NCBI GenBank assembly: GCA_009869945.1
Contig: WIXG01000276.1
Coordinates: forward strand, 43,308 to 107,307
Length of the DNA stretch: 64,000 nucleotides
Direction of reading: 5' to 3'
From: Mesaphorura yosii
Taxonomy: Eukaryota > Arthropoda > Collembola > Poduromorpha > Tullbergiidae
Positions 8,063-51,261 of the stretch are shown in pieces. The position numbers and the translations under genes were made by a program. The notes under the pieces are model-generated. The model was not told the DNA's origin, did not search any database, and worked only from the letters and a program-made list of their open reading frames with translations. The stretch's first letter is position 1, and each line of letters opens with the position of its first letter.

Positions 8063-11000
8063 ATGAGTGTAAAAATCGTCCCCGACTCTCACACGCAATG
8101 TCCACTCATCCAGGAAATTGGCGGCTACTGCTTCTGCAGGCCGAATCCAACCTCCAAGCAAATTCAGAAGCAGCAGCTCAAAGAAAAACAGCCAATCGTT
8201 TACGATCGGAATAAAATCGTGATTGACTTTGCGAATTATCCACAATTCAAGAATTTGCTTCAGGCTCAGAAGGAATATCATGTGAGAGGAGCTACGAGCC
8301 CCGGAGGAGCTGGCACCAGCACGCGGATTCGCAGGCACTTTATCGAAGTCAACATCGATTTCGGCCTCGTTCCCGTTGAAACAGCTGCCTATCGCGAAAT
8401 TCATGTCGTCGACTCGCAACATCCTGTGAGCAGTCCTGTAATTTAATTGGTTAAACGAAATTAATCGGTAGGGGCTTTATTTCTTTGATTCTGTTTCCAG
8501 AAATTGCACAAACGAATTGACATCCCTTCGCGTAAAGATTTGCCATCAATTTCGACTCTTGGCGCCGGCGTGACCGACAACGAGGCTAAACTGGATTCCG
8601 TATTCCGAATTGTCCTGCCTTCATCTCGAGTTCTTCAAGACGCGGGTGAAGTGACTGAAGTCAAGTCGCCTGGTTTCTTGGTGTTCGGAAACAGCAGTGA
8701 CGGCGGCGCTGGCGACGTGAATGTAACTTACAGTTCCCCGTCGACGTTGACGACACCGCCGAGCCTCAACAAATTCCGAGTCGTCTTCAAGCCGGAGCTG
8801 CCGTCGATGCAATACTCAGAAGTTTACTACGTCTGGGTCGACCAAAATGCTGGAATTGTGCTGAAATGCCAGGGACTTGGCGAAGGTACGTTAATCAGTT
8901 AATTTTATCAGTAGTGAATCTAATCTCATCTCTCCTCCGTGGCTTCGTCTGGTATTTGCAGGACCTCACGTTTGCTTCAGTGTAAATGTGCTAAATTTCG
9001 GAGTCCAATACTACAATGACGTGAAACGGCTGAAACTAAAGATGCACAATCACTCCAACGTGGAAGCGTACTTCCAATTCGATGCTGATAACGAACGGAG
9101 CGTGTTTAAGGTAAGAAGTAAGAATTAATCAGTTCTGCTCGGCTTTTTAATTAAAGCTCAGATGATCTCATTTTATATTGCGCTGCTGTTGTGTCCGTTG
9201 TCCGTTGCGTTTTTCAGATTTGTCCCTTGCAAGGCGCTCTAATGCCTCGTACCCTCCAAACCGTTGAAGTGACCTTCATAGCCCCGAAGCCCCAAACTTT
9301 CTACAAGCGAGTCGTGTGCCTCATTCATCACCAGCACCCGCAATTCGTGGAATTGACCGGCCTCTGCATCCCGAGACCTTTCATTGTGTTGGGTCCCATT
9401 GATTTATGCCTTTCGTCTGCCAGTACCAAGTTTCTGCCTTTGCCGTCAGACAGGTGAATTAGTGAATTTATTCTTAATTATTTTACCGATAGGCCAGATA
9501 AAGTATAATTTGCTGCTATCTTGTAGCAATTCCGAATTTTTTGAGGGCGAGCTACATTACGGAATTCAATTGAGCAAGAGCACCATTGATTTTGGGTTCC
9601 ACACTCCGCAGATGCAATTACAGTCAGACACCGCAAATCCGGCATCTCCGCCACCGCCATCACGGCGTCCGGCGTCCACTGCGGTTCGGATGTCCAGCAT
9701 CTTGCCGTACGACGTCATGGTGGAATGGGTTCAAGGTCTGAATTCGAGTACTTGCGTAAAAATTGCGGCGTTAAACGACTTGATTATTGATTGTCACTGC
9801 GTATTTAGACCCTTCGGGAGTCTTCGAGATCAGTCCCCAATTCACTCTACTGTCTGCCCACCAGTCCATCGCCCTCGAAGTCCATTTCAGTCCGAAGTTC
9901 CCTGAAACGTTCTACAGCGGCCAACTCGAGTGTTACGTGCTTCCGACTGAACGGCTGTGGCCGCATGCTTTTGGCCCGCCATGGGTGTACTACCCGAAGG
10001 ACCAATTCTTGCCTTATCAGCAGGAGGAACATCAAAACGACGAAGACGTCGGTGGTCAAGCTGCCGCTGCCGGTGAAGAAATGAAGCCAGAGCGTCTAAA
10101 GAGCAAGCGAAAGAGTAACATGAAGAAAAAGAAGAGCAGAGTCGACTTGGACGTCGATGTCGAAGGCGATAGAAATCAGATAAGTACGACCAAGCGATCA
10201 GCCATCCAAAGAGGAGCCACGACCGCAAAGGAGCTGGAGCAAGGCCCCGTGAGGGTGACCGTCCTCCAATTCAAGCAGGATCTGGAAGAAAGCATTTCTA
10301 AGCTGGAGGAAGCGGCGTCGGCGTCGCTTCCACGTCCGCTGCCAACCACAAGGACGTCGATCTTCGCTGAGGAGAGACACGCCTTTCCTTTACACTTACA
10401 CATTCGACATTCCGGCTGCGACCCAGGAGAGGATTACAGCCTCGTTCCCCACGAGCTTGGGTCCCCCGACTCCATCGCGTCGCTCGCCGCCGTGTCCGAA
10501 ATAGGAATCAGCCGAACCAGCTTCATTTATCATCACCACCATCATGGCCATCATGTTTCGAGCCTCCCGAAAATTTTCCAAGACAAGGTTGCCAGTGGGT
10601 TGAAGGAATTTGTATCGAAAGCAACAGCAAGTGGACCGTTGGTGTTAGCCAAATCAGGTGTTAGTGTTAAGCTCGAGTTGGAGCCAACAAAGGAGCCGGA
10701 GCCCGAAAATGCAAATGCCATGCAAGATCTGACTCTCAGCTCGCCTTCGCCGTCAGAAATGCCGTCGGAGCTGGCGATTCCTTTATGCATTACGCTGCGA
10801 GTTGCTGGACACACTTTCGAGAGCCTCACTCACATTCCTGTCCCACAATTTCAAATCCCTCGCCAAGTCACAATGCCGCCCACGTGGCCGCTTGCTCCCG
10901 TCTTCCGCTCGTTTATCATCAACAATAGCACCGATTTGCCTCTCTGCTACGAAGTTCAAGTAAGCGAAGACGGTGGCGGTGACAGCGAAGTGTACCACGT

Positions 11001-12414
11001 CAACCCGTGGAAGGGGGCCATTCCAGGAAACTGCCACCAAATCGTCCTCGTTTCGCTCACGCCTCGCCTGTCACACGTCTCCGACTACTCGCAGCACTGC
11101 AACGCGGTTTTCAACCTCAAAGACGAGAACGCCGTCGTTCTGCGAGGCGCTGCGGAGCTGCCCACAATGGAACTCGTCATCCTCCACGTTTCGAAACTCA
11201 ACGAACACGAAATCGTGTGCCCGGAAACGATGCTAGGCTGCGCAAGCGATATGCTGATAGAATTTCGAAACAGTTCCCGATTTCACTACCGATTCTGGTT
11301 CGAACCGACCTCGAAGAAGCACGTCAGCGCCTTCACGCCGATTCCCACTAATGGAATGGTCGCCCCACACGAGACGGTTCGAGTCATCTGGCGCTTTGCT
11401 CCAACGTCCGAGTCTGCATACTTTATCAAATGGTGCATGTGCATGAATGTCTTCCGGGAGGCGAGCGAAATGAGGAAGACGTCGACATCGACGATTTATA
11501 CGAAAGACCTGACGCTCGTCGGAATCGGACGCAGTGTCAAGCTGGAGTGTCGCCCCGCGCTCTTGGACTTTGGCTCGGTGAAGGCGCGCACGAAGAAAGA
11601 AGTTCAGATCGTCGTGAAGAATCCGATGAATGCCATGGCGCATATTCGGCTGCGACTGCGGATTGGCCGCCTTGACGCCGACAGCGAAGGCGACTCGCAT
11701 GGAACGGTAACAAAGTTGACAAAGACAAAGGACCAACTGGCAAAGAAAATCGACCAACTTCGAATTAACCCACTGAATTTTGACCTGGCGGGCGGTCAAT
11801 CTCGGTCTGTCACCGTTACAGTCCTTCCGCATCGAAATTCAGGAGACGCCCAGCTGTATTACATTGAATACGCGCTGGAGCCGACCGCAATCGCAATTAC
11901 AGTTGGAGCTGCAGGCGAGAAAGATTACGAATACAAGAAGCTCTGTGACGTTTCGTTCATTACGCATGCGCAAGATCCGAGCCGTCAAGGCAGCCATGCT
12001 GACGCGGACGACATCGGCAGCAAACCTGCTCAATCGCCTGAGAACCCTGAAGCAAGAACAGCGATGAATCCGCCTCCGCTCGTCCTTCGCATTTGTCGTG
12101 AAGTGATTTCCGATCAGCTTTGGGACACGCTGAACTCCGACACATTCACCTCGGACTTGGGCAGGCTGCTTAAAGGTCCGGCTCCGTTCTACAGCGATTA
12201 CAAGGCGGGCAGAGGCGGCGACGAGGACGCAATCGGCCAAGAACCCAAAAGCTTCAGCGAAAGCAAAGCGAAATATTTTCTTCAGCTTCCTCGTGTAATC
12301 ACCGAATTCATCCTCCAAGATTTGATCCACAATTTGGCACAGGAAGCCACGACGGCGATTTCCACTAGAAACGACCAAGTTTCAGGAAAACACCGGCGCC
12401 ATCGACATCGATAG
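8063..12414 (+). CDS. CFAP65: CFAP65-like axonemal protein with ASH/MSP-type domains
   Basis: Six exons (8063-8425, 8501-8885, 8962-9110, 9218-9453, 9527-9735, 9809-12414) give 1315 residues. Several immunoglobulin-like ASH/MSP repeats can be seen: VLNFGVQYYNDVKRLKLKMH, VCLIHHQHPQFVELTGLC, GVFEISPQFTLLSAHQSIAL and CRPALLDFGSVKARTKKEVQ. They alternate with low-complexity linkers. This design is found in the central-pair and radial-spoke proteins CFAP65, CFAP47 and HYDIN. The order of domains, the LIHHQ...LTGLC segment and the short C-terminal helix (VITEFILQDLIHNLAQEAT) favour CFAP65, but CFAP47 is possible. It is shorter than the vertebrate protein (about 1900 residues). A His run (YHHHHHGHH) lies near 10535. 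AATAAA signals are at 12494 and 12502. The gene implies flagellated sperm or motile cilia. Confidence 0.68.
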
Positions 12415-34752: not shown

Positions 34753-36090
34753 ATGAATATTTTACCACACAAAAGGTACGTAAATCAGTTAATTACGTCT
34801 AACGCCTGAATTCATGCCTACATTTTCTTATCTTATCCTGTAGTTGGCATGTCCGGACGAAGAAGAACATTGCGAGGGTACGCAAAGATGAAGCAAAGGC
34901 AGCAGAGGAAGAAAAGGAAAAGCAACGGCGAATTGCGTTGGCTGTAAGTGAAATCATTGTCATTACACTATCTCTCATAGCACGTCTGACCTCTTTAAGC
35001 CGCATTGACATCGATGTTTCCCAATTTTTAGGTCCAAGAAGATCGGACACGGTTTCTAAGAGAAAGAGCAGTACAGCGTTTGGGAGCTCCCGTGCCTGGC
35101 GGTGGCAGCCAGCTGGAAGAAGATAACGGCGAGGCTGGAGCAGCAGGCCCTGCAGCAGATCAACCTGCCCTGACCCTGACGGACCTGGATTTGACTCAAC
35201 AAAACGGGCATATCAACTTTTTTCAGGAAATCGAGGAGGGTACGAAGCTTGACGGCGCCGCAAACAAGGAGCACGAAGAAGAGAAGAAGAAAGAGCAAGA
35301 AGAGTACGAGAAGAAAATCGGGTATTTGGTGTATTTGGGGCAAAATAGTTTGGAGCATTCGAAAGATAAAATGTGGTATGAAAAAATTGATCGCGGAAAA
35401 CCAAGAGCATCAACATCGACGGCCACGCCCGACACCAGCGCCCAAAAAGATCAGGAGCTCGCGGATATGAAATTGGCGAAGCTGAAAGACTTCCAAGATC
35501 CACTCAAAGACATTAGAAAATATCTGTCGACACCGGGGCTCAAATCGGAAAAGGACGCAAAAAAGACGAGCAGTCAAGTTACTGTAGCCAAACGGAAAAT
35601 TTCAGTTCCAGAAATCGAACCGCCAGTGTCAGTCGCTAAAAAGAAGCCAAGAAAAGATAAGAAGAAGCATAAAGAGAAAAAGCACAAATCCAAATCCAAG
35701 AAGCATTCTAAGCATAAGAAAAAGAAGTCAAAGATGCAAGACAATTCCGATTCGAGGAGTTCGGGTTCAGAAGACTCAGAATCCGAGGACGAAGTTGACG
35801 AACAGGAGCTGAAAAAGAAGCAAAAGCTCGAGCAACTTCGCGCCGAAAGGCTGGAAAGGGAAAGAATCGAAAGGAGAAAGGCCCAGGCGTTGTTGGAGGC
35901 AATTAAAAACCCTGGCGGTAGCGGAGCCGCCGCGGGCGCGGCTGGAAAGTCGGCGTCAGCTTCGGAGAAAGACGCGGACGTGAACGGTGGCGGGGGACGC
36001 GGACGGCACCCGCAACTATTTCCAATCGCTAAGCAAAAGTACAACTCGCAATTTAATCCGCATTTGGCTCGTCAGAACTTCGATAACTAA
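34753..36090 (+). CDS. LENG1: LENG1-like protein (leukocyte receptor cluster member 1 homologue)
   Basis: Three exons (34753-34775, 34844-34943, 35032-36090) give about 393 residues. The N-terminus [20 protein letters not shown] with following [17 protein letters not shown] and RTRFLRERA is the CIR-type motif of LENG1. [11 protein letters not shown] is the conserved middle motif, and [11 protein letters not shown] is the conserved C-terminal motif. Between them lies a Lys/Glu/Ser-rich region ([20 protein letters not shown]) longer than in human LENG1 (about 264 residues). The family is nuclear, of poorly known function, with links to the spliceosome; a nuclear role is inferred. AATAAA is at 36174-36179. 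Confidence 0.93.
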
Positions 36091-36375: not shown

Positions 36376-39300
36376 ATGCAGCGTCAAAGGAGTCCAGGGC
36401 CGTGGTCGTTTGAAAATGCTTCAAAGCAGGTTCGAAATCCACGTTGGGTTGGCTGCAATTAATTTTAGTTATGAATCGTGTGTTGTTAATTTCGCCTTTC
36501 GCAAGTTAATGCAATGGCAACGACACTTCACTCTCTTTTCTCTGCTTTTCTCAGACTGTCTGCGTCCGCAAAGTCAAGCCAAGATTCCGGAAGAGGAAGG
36601 TCATCTGCAATCTGAACCTGAACTTGACTCCGAAAATATTCACCAACTTCCGAAACCGGGTTTTCTTTCGTGAATTTGTGCCCTCCTACGAACTCTGCGA
36701 TGAGCCCATCCAAATGAGCCGACTGATCGGTAATTTCTTACTTTTCTGCATTGCCAACTCACTTATTTTACCAGGTTTAAGTGTAGTTTGCGTTTACTGT
36801 GTTCCAGGTTACGATTATGGACGTCGATGGTTCTGCGAACGAAATGTGTGGATGCACAACGTTTGCAGCCAGGCGGGGGCGACCAGCTGGGGCAAAGGAA
36901 TGAGGAATGTTAAATTCAAGTGTTTACGGAGGCACAAGATCAGTGACGAGCGGGGTCAGGTCTATACGCAAAGTGGCGGTGCCGGCGACGACAGACACCC
37001 TCGAAAGGAGGCGGAGGCGCAACATCGAAATGCCCCTGACGATGGCGGCATAAGGCACCAACAAAAGGAGCGACAGGGACGAGGAGCGTCTGGATCTGCG
37101 ACGACGAAATCGAAACGGAGCCAAGGCATCAAATTTGACTGGCCGAAAATGAGCCCTGAGCAGGAGCGGTTTTTCATGAAGTCTGGCAGCGATAGTGACA
37201 GCAATCGTCCACACGAAGACGAAGTCGAAGAGGAGCCAGGGGCAGAAAATGCCCCTGCATTTGGAAAACGTGGACGTCAGTGCCAGCCAAGGTCAAGGTC
37301 AACGCCAGCGAAACGGGGCAAAGGAAATGGCAAAGGACTACGAGATTTCAAACGAGACTTGCCGAAGCTGAGCCCTGACCAGGCGCGGTTCTTCGCGCAG
37401 CCAGGCGGTAACGTCAGCGATGAGAGCGAAGCGCCTCCGCCCGAGAGCGAAGAGGAGGACGAGGCAGGACGAGTACATGCTCCCGAATTAGGAGGAAGTG
37501 ATCTGGAGTTCTCAAAGCCAAAGTCAAGACGATCTCGACAAATATCAGGATCCGGACATGGCCCAGGACCATCTGTAGTGGGAACCATCGGCGAGGATAG
37601 CTCCAGCCCTCCGTTGACCAATCAACAACCATTAGCCGCCTCAACTCCAATCAAAGACCAAGGCCAACCAACTGACGAGCAGCCAGCTGGATCAGTCCCA
37701 ACTGCAACTGCCAGTCGGGCCAGAACCAGGCAACCGTCCGAGCCATCGCCAGACAGCCAACCACCAGTCACGGCAACGACGACCCCTACTGACCACGAGC
37801 CAGAGTCAGACAAGTCTGTGCCTGTGCCACCTGAAAGGCAGTCGAAGTCGAAGGCCAAGCCCAGCCAAAGCCAACCACAAGCGCAAGGTGGGAAAGCAAA
37901 AGTCGCACCGGCGCGAGCTCCAGCCAGCCGAACCAGTCTACCGCCAGCTGCTCCATCCAACAACCCATCAGTGACGCCAATGCCAACTCCAGCCAACCAA
38001 GAGTCAGGTCCAGTTAAACCTGTGGCAACTCCCGTCCAGCCAAGCCCCGCCAAATCCAGCGAACCGTCGGCGTCAGTCAGTCCGCGCCAACCACCAACCG
38101 TGCCGCCAAGTTCTGGTTCTGCCAAACAAGAGCCGATAGAGTCTGTGCCAAGCGCGAGCCAGCAGCCAAGAACTAGTGAGATCAGCTCCAGCCAACCACC
38201 GTCGGGACCAATGCCAGTGAGCCAAGAATCAACCAATGAAGAGCCAGCAAACGCTTTGGCTTTGCCTGACCCAAGCCATCCGTCAGCCACACCGCTAACT
38301 TCAGCCGAACCTGAGACAGCCGCAGCAGAGCCGCGAACTTCAGCAGAAAAAGAGTCAACTGAACCCGAGCCAATGCCAATTGTCAGGCAATCAACCGGTG
38401 ACGAGGTCAGCGACAGCCAACTACCACCGCCATCGGGGCAGCCAACCCCTGCGATAGTCATCCAGGAACCATCCACCACCCAACTGATTCACCAGCCGCA
38501 GCCATCTTTGCCAGGCACTGGCACCAGTCAAGAATACTCAAGCCAACCGTCAGAAAGTCAGCCACCGGTACCCGTCACGAACAAACCTGAGCCGACTGAC
38601 AAAGAGCCAGCCGAACCTGTAGCAACCTCAGGCCAACGACCATTGGGACCAACCACAGTCATCGAAGGATTGAGCAGCGAACAGCCAAATGTACCAGCTG
38701 CCAGCGCCAGTCATCCACCAGCCACGCCGACAACTCCAGGCAACAAAGAGTCAGCCGAACCCGTGCCAGCGCCAGCCGACAGGCAGCCAACCATCAGCGA
38801 GGCGAGGGCCAGCCAACCACCAGAAAGTCAACTGCCAATGCCATCGGGGTTAAGCCTAGCCCACCAGAAGCCAGCGGCGCCGTCCTCAAGCCAACCACCA
38901 CCATCAGTCACTCTAACTCTAGCCAAATCTGCGTCCACCGTCAGTCACACGCCAGAGAACCAGCCACCATCGGGTCCAAACCTAGACGCAGACATCCACG
39001 AACCAACGAGCAAACAGCCAGCAGAACCAATGCCAATCGGACCAACAAGTCAGGAATACTCCGGCCAACCGTCAGAAAGTCAGCCACCGCCACCGTCGGA
39101 ATTATCTCCAGTGGACCAACAACCGGCGGTGGAATCTCAGCCAATCAGCGGCCAACTCGAGCCAGAGTCGGCAGGACCAGAGGCAAGGCTCTTGCAAGCA
39201 CCAGCACCAGCCAGTCAGCTAGAAATTCCAGCTAGCCTCCAAACCCAATCGGAAAAAGCGAAATCTCTGTCAAATCCCAGCCAGCAGCCTGGCTCTGGTT

Positions 39301-41235
39301 TGGGTTTGGATTCAGCCGATTTGCACGAACCCCAGACCCAGGCACTGCTCGAACATAAACAAGCAGGCATTCAGCCCTCCGACGCTGACGCTCCACAGTT
39401 TCCTTTGGCACAAACGGCCGTCTCTCAGCTCGTCACTTGTGTCCTGTCTTACGTGGTAAGAACTTATGCGATGCCATTTTGAATTGGGTAACTTAGAATT
39501 CCTGTTTTAGTATCTTGCTTCTATCATTTATGACTCCTTTGAATAGCAAGAAGACATCTGCGAAACCGATTGTAGTAAAATTGTCGTGAAAGACGGCCCG
39601 AGTTCAAAGTTTGAGCTACCGTTGCCGTTGCGTAAGTATTTTAAAGGATTAGATGCTTAGTTTAAGCATGGAGTAAACGGCCGGGTGGGAGTAGGAGTAA
39701 AACCTACGTCGAAAATTAATTCCTGCGTGTTTGACAATTAGTTTGTACCTGGAGTTATTAAGTACGTGAGTTAGAAACCAAAACCAAAACGCTACGCTTA
39801 CGCTACTCCAAAAAATGGAGTGCGTAAGAAAAGCGTTCTTACTCCCAAAAATGTGCGTAAGAGTTAAAAAATTGGAGTTGCGTAGATAATGGAGTAAGAA
39901 TAACTCCTACGTTTATACCTACGTGTACTCTTGCGTTAACGTTAGTTTAAACTAAGAATCTATTCTTGTCATTTTGGAGTTGTGAAATTGGCGTTTGGCG
40001 ATTTGTTCTTTGCAGAGCTGAAAGGAGCCACCGATTTGGAGCAGGCGACAGTTGCTGGAGTCAAAAGGGACGTATCTCTGCTTATCAATTCCGTGCTTTC
40101 CTGTGCAGGAGCGGAACCTCCTTGTCCACTCAAAAGTGACATATCGCAGCTGATTAACTCTGTACTTTCTTACGTGGTAAGCTTCATCAGTGGTCAATAG
40201 GAGAAATTCCCCTCCATCCTTCTGTACTTCAAAACTCAAACTGTCCAACTGCCTCTCCCTGTTTGCTGTTTTGTAGCAAGAAGACATTTGCGAAACCGAC
40301 TGTCGCAAAAACTCAGTGATGGAGGGCCAAATTCAAAAGTTGCCGACGGCGGTGACGACAGGAGCGGGCCAGGAGCTTGGCATGGTGGGTACGTTTTGCG
40401 TTCCGTAAGGCTTTGAAGTAGATTTTTGTTTCGTGCTGCAATTTTCCAATCCGTTGTTTTAGAACTTAAACGAGCCACGCATTTCGAGCAGCCGCCTTCA
40501 AGAAATGAAAGTGGTACGTATTTGAAGGAGCCGTTGATTGGTTGGTTGGTTAGTTAACATTTAACTATTTAACCAATTTCAATACCAACGAAATAAAGGC
40601 TACAAGCTAGCACCAGAAGAATCGAGTGTGCTCGTGATGGTGCAGCCAAGACTGGCCCTGAGTGTGGCCAGCGTGGCGCCTAGCCGCATGGGCGTACGCG
40701 TGGATGTCGCTTCTTCCGCGTCAGCAGTGAACAAAATGACGTATGGTGTAAGTCTCTTAATGCTAATGCTCCTGAGTCCTGACTCCTGAGGTTTATGCTT
40801 TCCTCTGGACTGAAGGTGGTGGATTCGGACGCTTCGTTCCTGGACGTCAACTACCACAAAATGAAGGCAGAACGAGGAGAGTCGAGCATACACAAGAACA
40901 GAACTGACATCAATTTAATTGCCAAACCGGGCGCCGGGTTGGGCGCAGGCGCGAGTCCCAATCAGGCCCCGCCAATTGACATCTCGGGCTCAACGGCGCC
41001 GCCGCCGTTGTCAATCGGCGTAAGACACTTTGCTTTGAGTGTACTGCGGCTCATTTCATTCGTGGAGCTTGCCTTAATTTAATACTCCGTTTTCCGTGTA
41101 CTCTTTTTCCAGGCCCGCATGTCGATGCGAGAAAATCTTCAGCGCATCCGGGAGTCTCTTGATGACATCCGGAAGGAGCTGAAAGAGCACGGGCTTGAAA
41201 CGCCGGATCCCCCGAGCAAAAACGGCCAAAAATGA
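36376..41235 (+). CDS. Unrecognised large Pro/Ser/Gln-rich protein with duplicated exon block
   Basis: Ten exons (36376-36429, 36555-36729, 36808-39455, 39547-39631, 40016-40176, 40277-40388, 40463-40513, 40599-40747, 40816-41019, 41113-41235) close to exactly 1253 residues. The order is: a short leader MQRQRSPGPWSFENASKQ; a basic, aromatic, Cys-containing N-domain (TVCVRKVKPRFRKRK, NFRNRVFFREFVPSYEL, RRWFCERNVWMHNVCSQ); two related acidic segments around SPEQERFF and SPDQARFF; about 600 residues of low-complexity Pro/Ser/Gln/Glu; a duplicated module (QLVTCVLSYV-QEDICETDC, then QLINSVLSYV-QEDICETDC); and a C-terminal helix (RENLQRIRESLDDIRKELKE). No signal peptide or membrane span is seen. 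The first exon is less certain: it uses donor CAG|GTTCGA, but it is in phase and preceded by an in-frame stop. Homology is unknown. Nuclear scaffold or extracellular roles are both open. Confidence 0.7.
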
Positions 41236-44200: not shown

Positions 44201-46737
44201 AAACTGATCAAGAAACCCGTTCAGCAGTACTAAGAAACTTCAGACTGTAAAATGCGAAGTTCTGAACAGAATTTATGCAGTTGGTTTTGTGCGTGCGGTG
44301 GTGCTTTAGTACTTAATACCGTTAATTAATTAATTCGTTTGTGTCCGTTTTCGTGTGGGCGTGTGGAAGCAATCTGCAAATTGCAATTGGAACATTTCGC
44401 TAGAAATTGGACGCTACGCTAGGCGTCAGAATCAATTGAAGGTAATGTGAGTTTCGATTTCGATCGATTGGCAAATTGGCATTCATTTGGGTGACCATTT
44501 ACCATTTCCTCGACGGTTAACCAACTTTACCGTATGAAAGCAGTGATTTTTGCCGTTTACTCTAAAAATTTATCTAATTCACCTGTCGTAAGACGTGCCA
44601 GAAGGGGATATTATGCACAAACAGGATTGTGTCTATAAATAACTCAAAACTCAATCAGTCAAGCTCGATTCGATAACCACTTGTTGCATAAACTCTTCGA
44701 ACTTCGATTCAATTTCTACACTGCTGCACTTTACAATACAATTGACAATTTGGAATTTGCACACTTGCCAACTTCAGTCATCATTCAGTCAACACTCAAG
44801 TTTAAAGTTTTCGCATTCGCATTTGTGTGACGGTGCCATCCATCCGCTTCTGCGAACTGCCGTCACAGACAGACAGTTTTATATTGATTGATTGATGATG
44901 GAGTTTCCAGAATCCAATCCAGATTCGAACCTCGAGCTGATTCGACTCCCGTCCCGCTTGGCTTGGCTTGGCGTAAATCAGCCACGCGATGCGATGAAGC
45001 ATTTTGTTTACTATTTACTTGACGAGCAGGATTCAGGAATGCCTTTGCTAATTAATTTCGTGCAGTGCAGGTTGTCAGCTGTTAATTAAGAGTCTGAATT
45101 TTGGGTCTGTCGGCTCGACACGAATACAATGCAGAGAATATGAATAAACAACAAAAGCATGACAAAAGCACGGATACGATGGGATTATTAATATGATAAT
45201 TATGCGTTTCAAAGTAATAAATTATATTTGCATGGGATCCAGTTCAAAGTGGATTCTGACAACATTTTCTGGTTGCGCTTCGCTGAAAGCCTTCGCCTTC
45301 GAAGTGGCACCATTTATCTAATCAATGAACTAATGTTAGAACAGGCTGGCAAGGCAGGCGGTTCACGAAAGTAAATATTGCCAGTGTCGTCTTGTTTCGG
45401 CCTTCTGCTCAGTTGCTCAGCGCTAATTGCAGTTGTAAAGCTGAAAAGCAGGTGGACGTGAATTCCAATTAGTCCTCCGCTTTTACGGCAGCTTATCAGC
45501 CGCTGAGCTGTCACAGGAATTTGGAAGAGCGGAATTTTTGCGAATGGTTAATGAATTTATTTTTAGCGCGAGGGCCGCATACAAATGACAATCGGCAAGA
45601 CACGTAACACAAACACGTAGCACGTAACTTAGAGATTGGAAACCTGTAAACTTCCGTTAATGAATGATTAATCTCATTCTGCATTTAAAATGCAAGTGCT
45701 TTCAGTTACTCCTCTAAGCACTCCTATTCAAACTCGGCCGTAACTGGTAAACAAATTAAGAATTCCCGCAAAGCAAAGCAGCAAAGCGAAGCGCCTCACC
45801 GCACCGCACCGCACCGCCACCGGATTGGATTGAATTCGATCAAATATTAACTTGTTTACGTTTTTGTGCCCTGTGTTTTAGATTTCAGGCCCGCCCTGTC
45901 CGACCCGGTCTAGTTCCAGTTTCTATTTCTACTTCCATGCTACCGAGGCCCTAATCTTCGTGTATCGTGATTAGTAATTCGTGGAATTCTGGATCATTAT
46001 CAAGAAGAATTGTTGAATACAGCGTCCGGGCAGTCCAGCTGTCCAGCGTCTCTCCAGATAAACTGCTCAACGTCAACCGCACGCGCAATCATTCTCGTAT
46101 TTCGTACTTGGCATTTGGCAACCGAACGTGAAAAGTGAAACCGCAATCAGCGTTCTCTCTTCTTGACATCGACATCGACACGACGGGAATGAATGATCAG
46201 CTCCAATTCGGGCTCAGTTTGCGGTTTCTTCTTCGTGGTCCGTGGTCGTGGACTTTGTACTCGGTCGGTGAATTAAATGGCAATGACTGGCAGCAGCAGG
46301 GTGGCCGAAGAATGAGGTGATAAGCACGAGCTAGTAGCGAGCGCTGTTGGAATGGGCACAACTCTTCTTGAAGAAATGGGATAGGCAATTAACTGACTGC
46401 AACTTCTGTGAAGTCACTTCAGACGTGCTTTAACCTCGAATCTGCCTGCGGCTGGAAATGCCAAGCGCTCCGACTCTAAACTTTGTCCAGAAGACGAAAA
46501 TCAAACCATAAGCAGCAAATGAGCAGAAAATCCGCCTGATTAACTGATTAATTAATGTAAACTCTCCCTTCAGAACCCTTTGCTTTCCCATCCCACACTC
46601 CTGTAAATCTCCGTAACCCCTGCCCTGTCTTGTTCACCTTTGGACATGTGACCCATGACCTTTGAATTCCCAATTTCGACGCTGTTGCCGACGACTCGAA
46701 CTTCGACGACCAGACCACCGAAATCAACTGATTCAAG
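41236..46737. other. 5.5 kb non-coding stretch, probably leader and regulatory DNA of the next gene
   Basis: No coding exon is supported on either strand. Two strong plus-strand splice donors occur at 42042/42043 (TTCG|GTAAGTG) and 44441/44442 (GAAG|GTAATG). A good acceptor at 46573 (CTCTCCCTTCAG) is 164 bases before the next start codon. One or more non-coding first exons with a 2-4.5 kb intron would explain this. Short GCACC repeats sit near 45796-45815. This is the longest gene-free stretch of the window. Confidence 0.5.
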
Positions 46738-49700
46738 ATGAGCCTTATTCGAAAGCCCGTCATTTCTTCGTCTTCGTGTGGTCTTCCTTCGCCGCCATCG
46801 TCGTCGAAGGAGACGTGGACGATCACGTGCTACTCGTGTGGAATGCCTTCTTCAAGTGTCTGGGCCAAACTTGTCCGATGTCACCCGGATCAAGAATCGA
46901 CTCCGTACTACCCTCACCTGCTAGAACTGCCCTGCCCCAACGGAGCCGTGCTCTCCGAAGACGGGACGACACACCTCTGCGCCTTCTGCTTCGCTTCGCT
47001 CGAATCTCAGTGGAGCAACTACGAAAAGACGGCGACCAAGACCGAGTCGATGGTTCACCCAAAAGACAGAAAGTACAACCTGCAAAAGTTTGTGTGTGCC
47101 GTCTGTGGAGTGCAAACGTACAGAAAAAGGATCCGAGCGCTCCCGTTTCAGGTAAGACTCGGCAGATTTCTAGTCGGCCAGGCATTTTTGCAAGAATTGC
47201 TTTTGCTTTCCAGGAATTTCCATTCTTAACGAAAGACCGCCAGCCAGGAAGCCTGACTCTTGGTCAGAATCCGCTGGCAATCGTCTGCCTCGACTGCTCA
47301 GAGACTTTGTGGGCTCAAAGCGCCGAGTACGAGCGGTGGGGGCTGCCCATTCAGAAGAGGCACTTCAACTGGATGGCTCGACCTCCTCCGCCTGAGAATA
47401 GCATGGAGGCGACTGTGGCGCGGTTGCCATCGGGGGAGACTCAGCTGCCACGATGTCCGCCCATCGAGCCTTCAGTGACGAAGGGCAGACCACACTTGTA
47501 CTCGGAGCTCATCGCACCCAACGGGCAGGCGCAGTCCGACACCAAACATCGGGTGGATTTAAATCGGCATCGGAATTACAAATCGCTGAATGTCGCTCCA
47601 ACGAGCAGAAAATCGTCGGCGCCCTGCTTGTCGTCTGCGGAACATGCCCACACTCACGCTCAATTTCCGCCTGTCGTCACAGTGGCTCCGATGTCATCGT
47701 ATAAAGACAGCGTATCGGTGCGAAAGGTAAGAATTTTTGAACTCACTAACCCTAAAAGCTAATACACATTGTTGCCGTACAGGGAGCCTCTTCCGTTCCG
47801 CCTTTGGCGTCTGACCTCTTGAAAGCTGATGCCAGCAGCAGCAATCACTCCTCTGACTCACTCCCGCCAGTCCTTCCGCTGGGGCTGCATTACCCCGCCA
47901 GTGCCAGTGCCAGTAGGCCGGTGCCGACGCCAAGTTTCCTGGACTCCCCCGCCTACAAAGCTCTCCAATGGCACGGGCATGTGTCACCGCGTGACTTCGG
48001 TCACTCGTACAACTCGCTTGCTGAATCTAGTCAGTCTCCGAATCCGAACGCGACTTCAACCTGGCCGTGGATCCCCAACGTGGCCATGCATTCCCATACG
48101 CATCCACACGGGCCAACCGCGACGGAATTTGTGAATTATCAGTCGTATTTGGCTTCACTTGCAAGCAGAAGGTAAGCTTTGAAGGCCTTTGATGGCGATT
48201 CTCATTAATTGCCTTGCCATGCCTTTGACGTACCTTTTCGCCTTTGCTTTGAATTTAGTATTGGAGCTGCGGAATCTTACATCCCGCCTCCGTCTGTCTA
48301 CACTGGCCCGCTTCCCATCTCACAGCCGCCTCATTCTCATCTTGGACTCTCTATTTCACCCTACACCGCTTGTGCGTCGTTTCTGTCAGCGTCAGCGTCA
48401 CATTCGTCACTGTCCGCCGCCAGCGAGAACGGGAATTTTTCACCCCAGGCCACGTTCCTTTCACCTTCACCCTTGTCGAACTCTAACGTGATCTCCAACA
48501 AGAGCATGACTCCGACCGAAACTCCGTCTACGCCCGCACCCGCGCCTGCGTCTTCAAACAGACTCTTCCATCCCTTGAAAATAAAAGGCTCTCCAAATGG
48601 AGTCTGTGACATTCCTCCGAAGAATCGCTCACAATTCAACAGCAGCAGCGGCGGGAGAGATGAAGTCCACAACCAGAGTCACTCCAAGAAGTCCGCTTCT
48701 TCTGCTTCGGCTGCACATGTGACTGAAGTCACTGATCTTTCGATGTCGGCGTCGAGAGCGCGGAGTTCCAGCTCCGAGTCGAGCGGAGCGTCCACTTCAA
48801 GTCACTCAAGCGCAAGCGGGTATTCAGCACGCACACACCCTCACGCTCACTTCAAGAAGCGCTGGAATGAAGCTCAGGCCCAGCAAGGTTCAGAAGGCAA
48901 TGGCGATGGTGAAGTCGAAGTAGAAGTTGCTGTCGATCTGAGCAAGAACGGCAAGAAATGCGTCGACGAATTTTCGCCTCTGGCATCGTCACCAACAGCA
49001 GCTCAGTCACAGTCAGCTGTACCGTCTCGAAAGCGATCATACTCATTCTCAATCGCATTCTTATGCAGTGAAACTGGTTCAGGTTCAGAAGCTTTGTTGT
49101 CATTATCGTCCTCCCCTTCGTCCTCGTCTTTTTCTGGGACACAGCCACAACTCAGTCCAAATCAAGAGTCTGTCTCCATTGGCCTTCCACCGGATTCAGA
49201 AGATGCCAAAGAAATATTCACTGTGAAGGAAGGTGCTGCGAAGCCGGGAGGAAACTCGCAGCCGGAAGTCCCTGAAAAGAAGCTGAAGGCTGCCTCAAGA
49301 AGGGAAGATTCTCAATCGCTCGCGCCCGTGTCCTGCCCAGTACGCATGGCACAAGCGCTGAGTGAAGAGGAAGTGATGGAATTCGTGGAAAATGCGAAGG
49401 CCGCCTACAGACTCGAAGAAAGAAGGCGGAAGCAAGCAAAGAGACAGAGCGATGCAGAAAAAGAAGAATTTCTCAAGCCCCTCAATCTCATAAGCATCGA
49501 AGAAGTTTCTGGTAAGTGAAGTCAAAGAATTCTTCGGCATTTTAATGCGTTCAGTTAATTCAACATATGTCAATTGTGATTTCCTGTGGTGCAGAATTGG
49601 AATTGAAGAAGACAATCAGCCGAGCTGAAAAGCGGACACTACCACCGCTTGAAATGTGGGCTGGCTCTCCGGAAGACGAATACGACGAAATGGAGGCTCT

Positions 49701-51261
49701 CTTGCAGAAGGAAATTAGGCGTGCGCTCTCAGAAATTAAATACTCCGATGGCGGCAATGGCAATGGTATTGGTGGCCCTGATCAGGATTTCCTCGGCAAT
49801 TTGGGCTTGAAAGCGAACTCGAAAAACGAGAAATTCGGTACGAACAAAAAGCACGCATTAATTAAGCTTAATGCTGACTTGGTTTGTTCTCCTTCCCGTC
49901 ATTTAGAAATTGAGCAGCAATGGTGCTTGACTCTCCTCGAAAAACTGTTACGACTGTCACGCAACAGCAACGGTAAAGGCAAATTTTCACGAAAGTGGAG
50001 CGCCGAAGAACTGACAAAAGTCGTTGCCGAGCTGGCGAATATCTGTCGCGTGGATTACAGCAGCAACGGCAATGGCGATGGACACGGCGCCAGAATTTCA
50101 CACAATCAGGAAGAGCGGCTTCAGCAATTCTCAAACTTGTCAGTTATTCTCTCGCCCGAGGCGGAGGACTTGCTGACGAAGCAGGGACTCTTCAATTCGG
50201 CGGACTTGCTCTCAATTGTGAACAGCTGCGGAGGCCCAAACGCCAACACAAATTTGGAAGAAGTTCAAGAAATCCGACTTCATTCTGTCGAAGCAGAAAC
50301 TGAAACCGAGAACGAAGTTGAAATTGGCGACTCAAAGTTGGCGATTATCTCACCTGTAATCAGTTATCCACGATACATCCCAAGTTTCGCGAATGCGACT
50401 TCGGCTCCCGGCATTGAAGACGAGTGCGAAGTTGGCGACGGCGATGGTGACGGTGACAAGATTAACGGAAGCATTCTGAACATACCAAACGTTGTCCGTC
50501 ATTCTTTTCCCGATCATGGCCCTGATCCGCCGGTAAAGATAAGGCAGGATCCGGAACCTCGCCCTTCTTTCCCTGTTCCTGCTCCCGTTCCCGCAATCTG
50601 CATTCCTAAAGTTCCTATACGAAAGTCGAGTTGTTCGGAGTCAACGCACGCGCGCTCGCACTGTGAAAATCAGAATCCTGAACTGCACCCGAAGCTTGCT
50701 AAAAGAGTGCAAAGGAAAGACTCCTCCGAGGGAAAGTTGGTCCAAGTCAATACGAATACTGGGACAATCTCGAAAAATACGATTCACAATCACAACCACG
50801 TGAAGCACACGATCGTGGGCCCCGATGCACGTGTGTGTGCGGTCGACGCGGAAGGGATCATCGGGCGTTATGCGGAGGTCATGAAAGGTCAGCTGTTGTT
50901 GTAATTCAAAATTCCCTCCTATGAAATTTAATTTAAAATTTACATGCGAATGTTATTGCTTTGGCTTGGCGCAGGTTTGCGACACGAGATTGACAATCTG
51001 CTGTCTTCCTCCGCGACGGTTGGGGCTCGGGAGACCGACGCCCGAAACGGGCAAACTCAGGCGCAGGCTATCGACCAAATCCAAAAATTAAGAAGTGCAT
51101 TAGCGACCTACCAATCAGATATGAAAGTTGTCGAGAGAAAGCTGCGAAAAAGGGAAAAAGAAATTCTGCGTTCTCGGGCAATGGCGGTGCCGGAGAAAAG
51201 TGCGCCTACACCGACGAATTTAAAGTTGGATTTGCAAGCCAAAGCGAAAGGATTTGCATGA
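46738..51261 (+). CDS. Unrecognised 1382-residue protein with tandem Cys2-Cys2 modules
   Basis: Six exons (46738-47151, 47214-47726, 47783-48171, 48259-49511, 49595-50887, 50975-51261) give 1382 residues. Residues about 25-120 carry CYSCG, RCH, YYPHLLELPC, LCAFC and QWSNYEK. Residues about 120-210 repeat the same order: CAVCG, EFPFL, VCLDC, EYERWGLP and KRHFNWM. The repetition suggests two related zinc-binding domains of pattern CxxCG...(F/Y)P(F/H)L...CxxC...YE. The rest is low complexity (Ser, Pro, His, Gly), with a charged helix (EEVMEFVENAKAAYRLEERR, followed by AEKEEFLKPLNLISIEE) and a C-terminal coiled coil (QIQKLRSALATYQSDMKVVE). FL-x2-LNL-type helices recall GSE1-family chromatin proteins, but the likeness is weak. 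A nuclear regulator is inferred. No gene name is given. Confidence 0.8.

Follow-up and report, generated by a model that had tools for sequence, protein, structure and literature searches.

Gene content of the window and the ten-exon gene

The window, meaning the whole 64,000-nucleotide stretch of Mesaphorura yosii DNA analysed here, carries on its + strand a gene that we model with ten exons (36376-41235). A Pfam scan of ten open reading frames (ORFs) from the window indicated a type II-like topoisomerase, EIF3I, a CFAP65-like protein, an EF-G-like protein, a lipase and MutS, and returned no match for four of the ten. The ORF located just upstream of the ten-exon gene (35032-36087) had no Pfam match above the cut-off, and we take it to encode a LENG1-like protein. 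The CFAP65-like ORF is an open frame of 876 codons (9784-12411) that matches CFAP65 Ig-like domains; CFAP65 is a flagellar protein, and we infer from this frame that flagellated sperm are present in this small-genome animal. Two further long open frames on the + strand, of 367 codons (46659-47759) and 452 codons (49546-50901), were without a Pfam match. Elsewhere in the genome, two adjacent fatty-acid-binding-protein-like ORFs were observed (L021 and L022, contig C506 of assembly G000), each in a single frame, one scoring over the Pfam cut-off and the other under it. The genome also gave 66 matches to Chitin_bind_4, a cuticle domain typical of arthropods, and none to Col_cuticle_N, the N-terminal domain of nematode cuticle collagen, in a search whose control genomes likewise returned no match; together with these ORFs, such domain content points to an arthropod or a near relative.

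The ten-exon model yields a single open frame of 1253 codons in which all introns are GT-AG, with successive exit phases of 0, 1, 0, 1, 0, 1, 1, 0 and 0. Eight of the nine donors (introns 2-9) match the consensus GTRAGT at 5 or 6 of 6 positions, a level reached by 9.4% of all + strand GT dinucleotides in the window. The donor of intron 1 matches at only 3 of 6, and the true start of the gene is therefore uncertain, as is the putative exon 1 (36376-36429), which supplies the start ATG and is the least certain of the exons. Exon 2 (36555-36729; donor 5 of 6) encodes a basic, cysteine-containing N-terminal region, and six cysteines fall within the first 140 residues of the protein. The large exon 3 (36808-39455) encodes a tandem SPxQxRFF repeat followed by a long stretch rich in P, S, T, Q, E, G and A, these seven residues making up 75% of the 600 residues from 331 to 930. 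Exons 4 to 7, described below, encode cysteine-containing repeats, and 7 of the 14 cysteines in the protein lie within residues 931-1090. Exons 8 (40599-40747) and 9 (40816-41019) follow, and exon 10 (41113-41235) encodes a charged C-terminal stretch and the stop codon. The predicted protein thus runs from a basic N-terminus through the PKxSPxQxRFF repeat, a low-complexity middle and the cysteine-containing repeats to a charged C-terminus.

The repeat in exon 3 is a second tandem repeat within the same protein. It spans residues 144-278 (37008-37412), within which residues 144-205 align with residues 217-278; the score is 72, and shuffles reached at most 51. The unit of approximately 73 residues comprises the core PKxSPxQxRFF and acidic tails.

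Copies of the module and their similarity

The cysteine-containing region is built from two blocks of the same parts in the same order. The first block consists of helix A (VSQLVTCVLSYV; 39420-39455, + strand) at the end of exon 3, an intron, the peptide QEDICETDC (39547-39573) at the start of exon 4 (39547-39631, phase 0 to 1), a second intron, and the peptide LKGATDLEQ at the start of exon 5 (40016-40176, phase 1 to 0). The second consists of helix C (ISQLINSVLSYV; 40141-40176, + strand) at the end of exon 5, an intron, a second QEDICETDC (40277-40303) in exon 6 (40277-40388, phase 0 to 1), another intron, and LKRATHFEQ in exon 7 (40463-40513, phase 1 to 1). An initial sequence-only reading of this DNA had placed helix and QEDICETDC peptides here, and their positions were confirmed. 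It had also described a shared ELKxAT..EQ start in the exons that follow; LKxATxxEQ is indeed common to both, while the codon before LK is CAG (Gln) in the first block and GAA (Glu) in the second, so that the spliced first copy reads QLKG and the second ELKR. The third helix copy that it reported is present as helix B (VSLLINSVLSCA; 40072-40107, + strand), and its precise place is in exon 5 together with helix C, 69 bases upstream of the latter.

Local alignment of the DNA of the two blocks (39380-40062 versus 40063-40513) gave a score of 58, which none of 1000 dinucleotide shuffles reached (mean 20.6, maximum 31). At the protein level, residues 948-980 align with residues 1030-1062 with a score of 107, while 100 shuffles of the 653 residues left after removal of the low-complexity middle gave a maximum of 51. 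These results demonstrate a tandem duplication within one protein-coding gene. Homology of the sequence upstream of the helices was not supported, as the score for A against C was equalled in 3062 of 5000 shuffles and that for A against B in 4911 of 5000. The stretches after EQ in exons 5 and 7 are unlike by eye.

The module appears to be restricted to this gene in the 93-Mb genome (1127 contigs). The exact QEDICETDC pattern occurs at two places in the whole genome, both of them here, and a search with the 168-residue module region matched five stretches, all in this gene. The proposal that the module belongs to a protein without a recognised family was also borne out by the searches performed. 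No Pfam family scored over its curated cut-off in residues 1-368 and 929-1253, the parts on either side of the P/S/Q-rich residues 369-928; weak matches below the cut-off, the best with an E of 0.033, were attributed to chance. The PDB chains yielded no match either, with a limit of E 10 in the searches with the module and of E 5 in those with residues 1-283 and 1079-1253.

Breakpoints, introns and codon changes

The sequence-only reading had described the event as duplication of an exon pair together with its introns. A module was duplicated, but "exon pair" describes the unit imprecisely. The start of exon 5 resembles that of exon 7 and its end resembles that of exon 3, indicating that the breakpoints lay inside exons and that two broken exons were fused, leaving exon 5 as a chimera with an LKGATDLEQ start and a helix-type end that carries helices B and C. 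Reading the scenario from the order of the parts, the copied segment would have run from the helix-bearing end of an exon 3-type exon into an LKxATxxEQ-bearing, exon 7-type exon, and its junction would have become exon 5. A separate duplication of 69 bases, either before or after this event, would have produced the extra helix.

The introns of both blocks occupy matching positions with phases of 0 and 1 in each, and to this extent the introns were duplicated with the module as proposed. In contrast, their sequences are unalike: in comparisons of the corresponding introns, 124 of 500 and 389 of 500 shuffles reached the observed score, and when an inserted element was removed from one of them the figure for that pair was 544 of 1000, with 984 of 1000 for the other pair. 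The absence of likeness beyond chance argues that the duplication is old. The element in question is a 313-nucleotide, MITE-like interspersed sequence in intron 4 (39650-39962, including the TA at both ends) with terminal inverted repeats of approximately 16 nucleotides (TAGATGCTTAGTTTAA), its ends having been set by alignment to two of its other copies. At least four further genomic copies, with 83-88% identity as a lower bound, are among the matches listed (G000 C8:175204-175499, C91:167788-168081, C81:74926-75219 and C301:26398-26685), and its presence in intron 4 is presumably due to a later insertion. It accounts for the length of this intron, which is 384 bases in total and 73 bases without the element, compared to 74 for intron 6. 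Since the eight other introns of the gene are all 68-125 bases, this match in length is a weak sign of homology. A duplicated or collapsed assembly, a hazard that the sequence-only reading had itself flagged, is improbable: the two sets of coding copies are not identical, and their introns resemble each other no more than shuffled sequences do.

Comparison of codons between the copies suggests which parts of the module have been maintained. Helices B and C are identical at 8 of 12 residues, and 7 of those 8 codons differ synonymously; A and C are also identical at 8 of 12 residues with four synonymous changes, and A and B at 6 of 12 with five. The two QEDICETDC peptides are identical at all nine residues with two synonymous changes, and the LKxATxxEQ peptides at six of nine, again with two. 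By comparison, an ungapped alignment of the 19 residues that follow QEDICETDC finds only four identical between the copies. Residues kept despite synonymous codon changes imply a conserved protein, and these raw codon counts, small in number, point to conservation of the helix and tail at the protein level. Judging from these patterns, selection would have preserved the hydrophobic residues of the helix together with the QEDICETDC tail, as introns and linkers diverged.

Candidate roles of the repeated helix

The best reading of these data, to which we would give an even chance, is that an old tandem duplication multiplied an amphipathic docking helix that selection has kept within a largely disordered scaffold. 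Each copy would consist of a short amphipathic helix and an acidic, cysteine-containing tail, the tail being absent after copy B. Hydrophobic residues occupy helix positions 1, 4, 5, 8, 9 and 12, and also 16 (the Ile of QEDIC) in A and C, and these kept positions fall on one helix face. When compared with random 18-mers, the helical moment of helix A is in the top 8% and that of helix C in the top 3%, while that of helix B is unremarkable, being equalled by 62% of random 18-mers; in B, Gly and Pro come next. Acting as a docking motif, the helix in two to three copies would provide more avidity or allow at least two partners to be held.

As to what might dock, our best single guess, though one of low probability, would be a dimeric docking domain like those of PKA-R and Dpy-30, bound in the manner of an A-kinase anchoring protein (AKAP) helix. 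The spacing of hydrophobic residues in AKAP helices is h..hh..hh..h, and this spacing is present in all three helix copies. The pattern matches four times in the 1253 residues (the three helices and one match overlapping helix A) versus 0.645 times per shuffle; however, 45% of shuffled versions of the protein contain it one or more times, and the matches are not independent, because the three helices arose by duplication. On a profile built from six known AKAP helices, 0.35%, 1.1% and 0.7% of random 12-mers score as high as copies A, B and C, compared to 0.007-0.17% for the known helices each left out in turn, the training set being small. Residues 62-73 of the protein, which are unrelated to the helices, score higher than any of the three. 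Given the weak profile score, the higher score of a stretch outside the helices and the frequency of the pattern in shuffles, identification of the gene as an AKAP is not supported; the helix perhaps works like an AKAP helix, and the gene is not classed as one.

The Pfam family RII_binding_1, which covers some AKAPs only, had no match in the residues scanned or at this gene, and its only match in the genome lies elsewhere and below the cut-off. Five AKAP peptides from the PDB and one from PMC3468582 fit the spacing by eye, with the exception of one Ser in smAKAP. When AKAP peptides were used for sequence searches of the PDB, each recovered no AKAP but its own, the other matches being weak or to designed proteins, and since these peptides miss each other by sequence, the empty searches count little against an AKAP-like mode of docking. 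Other short motifs were also scanned for. No CRM1 export pattern covers helix A or C; two of these patterns begin at residue 1000 and extend into helix B, and others lie elsewhere in the protein; LxxLL has no match in the protein; one of three matches to a SUMO-type pattern is inside helix B (VSLL); and an RVxF-type pattern matches twice towards the N-terminus, at residues 53 and 109.

The genome encodes proteins that can be read as suitable partners, namely a PKA RI (L008), a PKA RII (L010) and a Dpy-30 protein (L013). The RI docking domain scores 56.5 bits. That of RII straddles the Pfam cut-off, at 23.7 bits (over) in one scan and 19.8 (under) in another, so the name rests also on the other features of L010 (G000 C161), a single open frame of 399 codons with two cyclic-nucleotide stretches and an RRKS site; that L008 is the RI and L010 the RII is our presumption. 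The pattern [RK][RK]x[ST], noted after the fact, has two matches only in the ten-exon protein (1051 and 1081), both in the second block. A more elaborate version of the docking reading would make the protein a lineage-specific PKA-anchoring scaffold in which a tandem duplication that fused exons gave extra copies of the helix docking the R subunit, and whose second block could both recruit PKA and be its substrate. We regard this version as unlikely.

Several explanations compete with a multiplied docking helix. The strongest, still unlikely in our view, is alternative splicing, in which exons 4 and 5 or exons 5 and 6 would be left out, and the majority of transcripts would retain a single module with the side residues particular to that copy. 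Skipping of exons 4 and 5 (85 + 161 = 246 nucleotides) or 5 and 6 (161 + 112 = 273 nucleotides) keeps the frame, while skipping of exon 4, 5 or 6 singly breaks it, and tandem duplicated exons have been linked to mutually exclusive splicing (PMC9013439). The confinement of both [RK][RK]x[ST] matches to the second block would also fit this reading. Yet the units are not simple exon copies, exon 5 being a chimera, and the strong donors of introns 2-9 also fit constant inclusion. Mutually exclusive use of the modules, raised at the outset as a caveat, is thus possible. Self-association, an idea also raised by the sequence-only reading, has a similarly low probability. Here the helices would pair and the C-x3-C motifs of two modules would meet as a metal site or clasp, the duplication having made a dimer contact internal. 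The identity of CETDC in both copies and the concentration of half of the cysteines in residues 931-1090 are consistent with such a contact, but each helix spans only about two heptads, helix B is not followed by CETDC, and searches of Pfam (residues 1-368 and 929-1253), of PDB sequences and of the species' own genome returned no relative.

Less probable again is that the duplication was neutral and added no function to a disordered protein that changes fast; the strong divergence of the linkers past QEDICETDC and the presence of the further tandem repeat in exon 3 are consistent with this, but helix residues were kept through many synonymous changes. An artefact, whether a wrong gene model, a pseudogene or assembly collapse, is very improbable, since beyond the weakly supported exon 1 the open frame spans all ten exons with strong donors at eight of nine introns, the block introns are unalike, and residues are conserved across synonymous changes.

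With respect to known systems, the kind of event is common: PMC9013439 cites an earlier study in which the share of animal genes with tandemly duplicated exons was about 10%. As in such genes, neighbouring exons here are homologous, with the same phases and with introns at the same places. In contrast with them, the breaks lie within exons, one exon is chimeric, and a single exon holds two helix copies. The gene owes some interest to this chimeric exon and to its unrecognised protein. It is a clear example of how a short motif can be multiplied when a duplication has its breaks in exons; here the chimeric exon is still readable and signs of selection on the motif are visible inside a single gene. 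With AKAPs (PDB 2drn, 4zp3, 2h9r, 3im4 and 5hvz), the gene shares a short amphipathic helix with the h..hh..hh..h spacing in a disordered-looking protein. It differs from them in its low profile score, the absence of an RII_binding_1 match in the residues scanned and at this gene in the genome, the cysteine-containing tail and the tandem copies. If the helix does dock a known dimeric domain, the gene would show how scaffolds can gain valency without the copying of whole domains.
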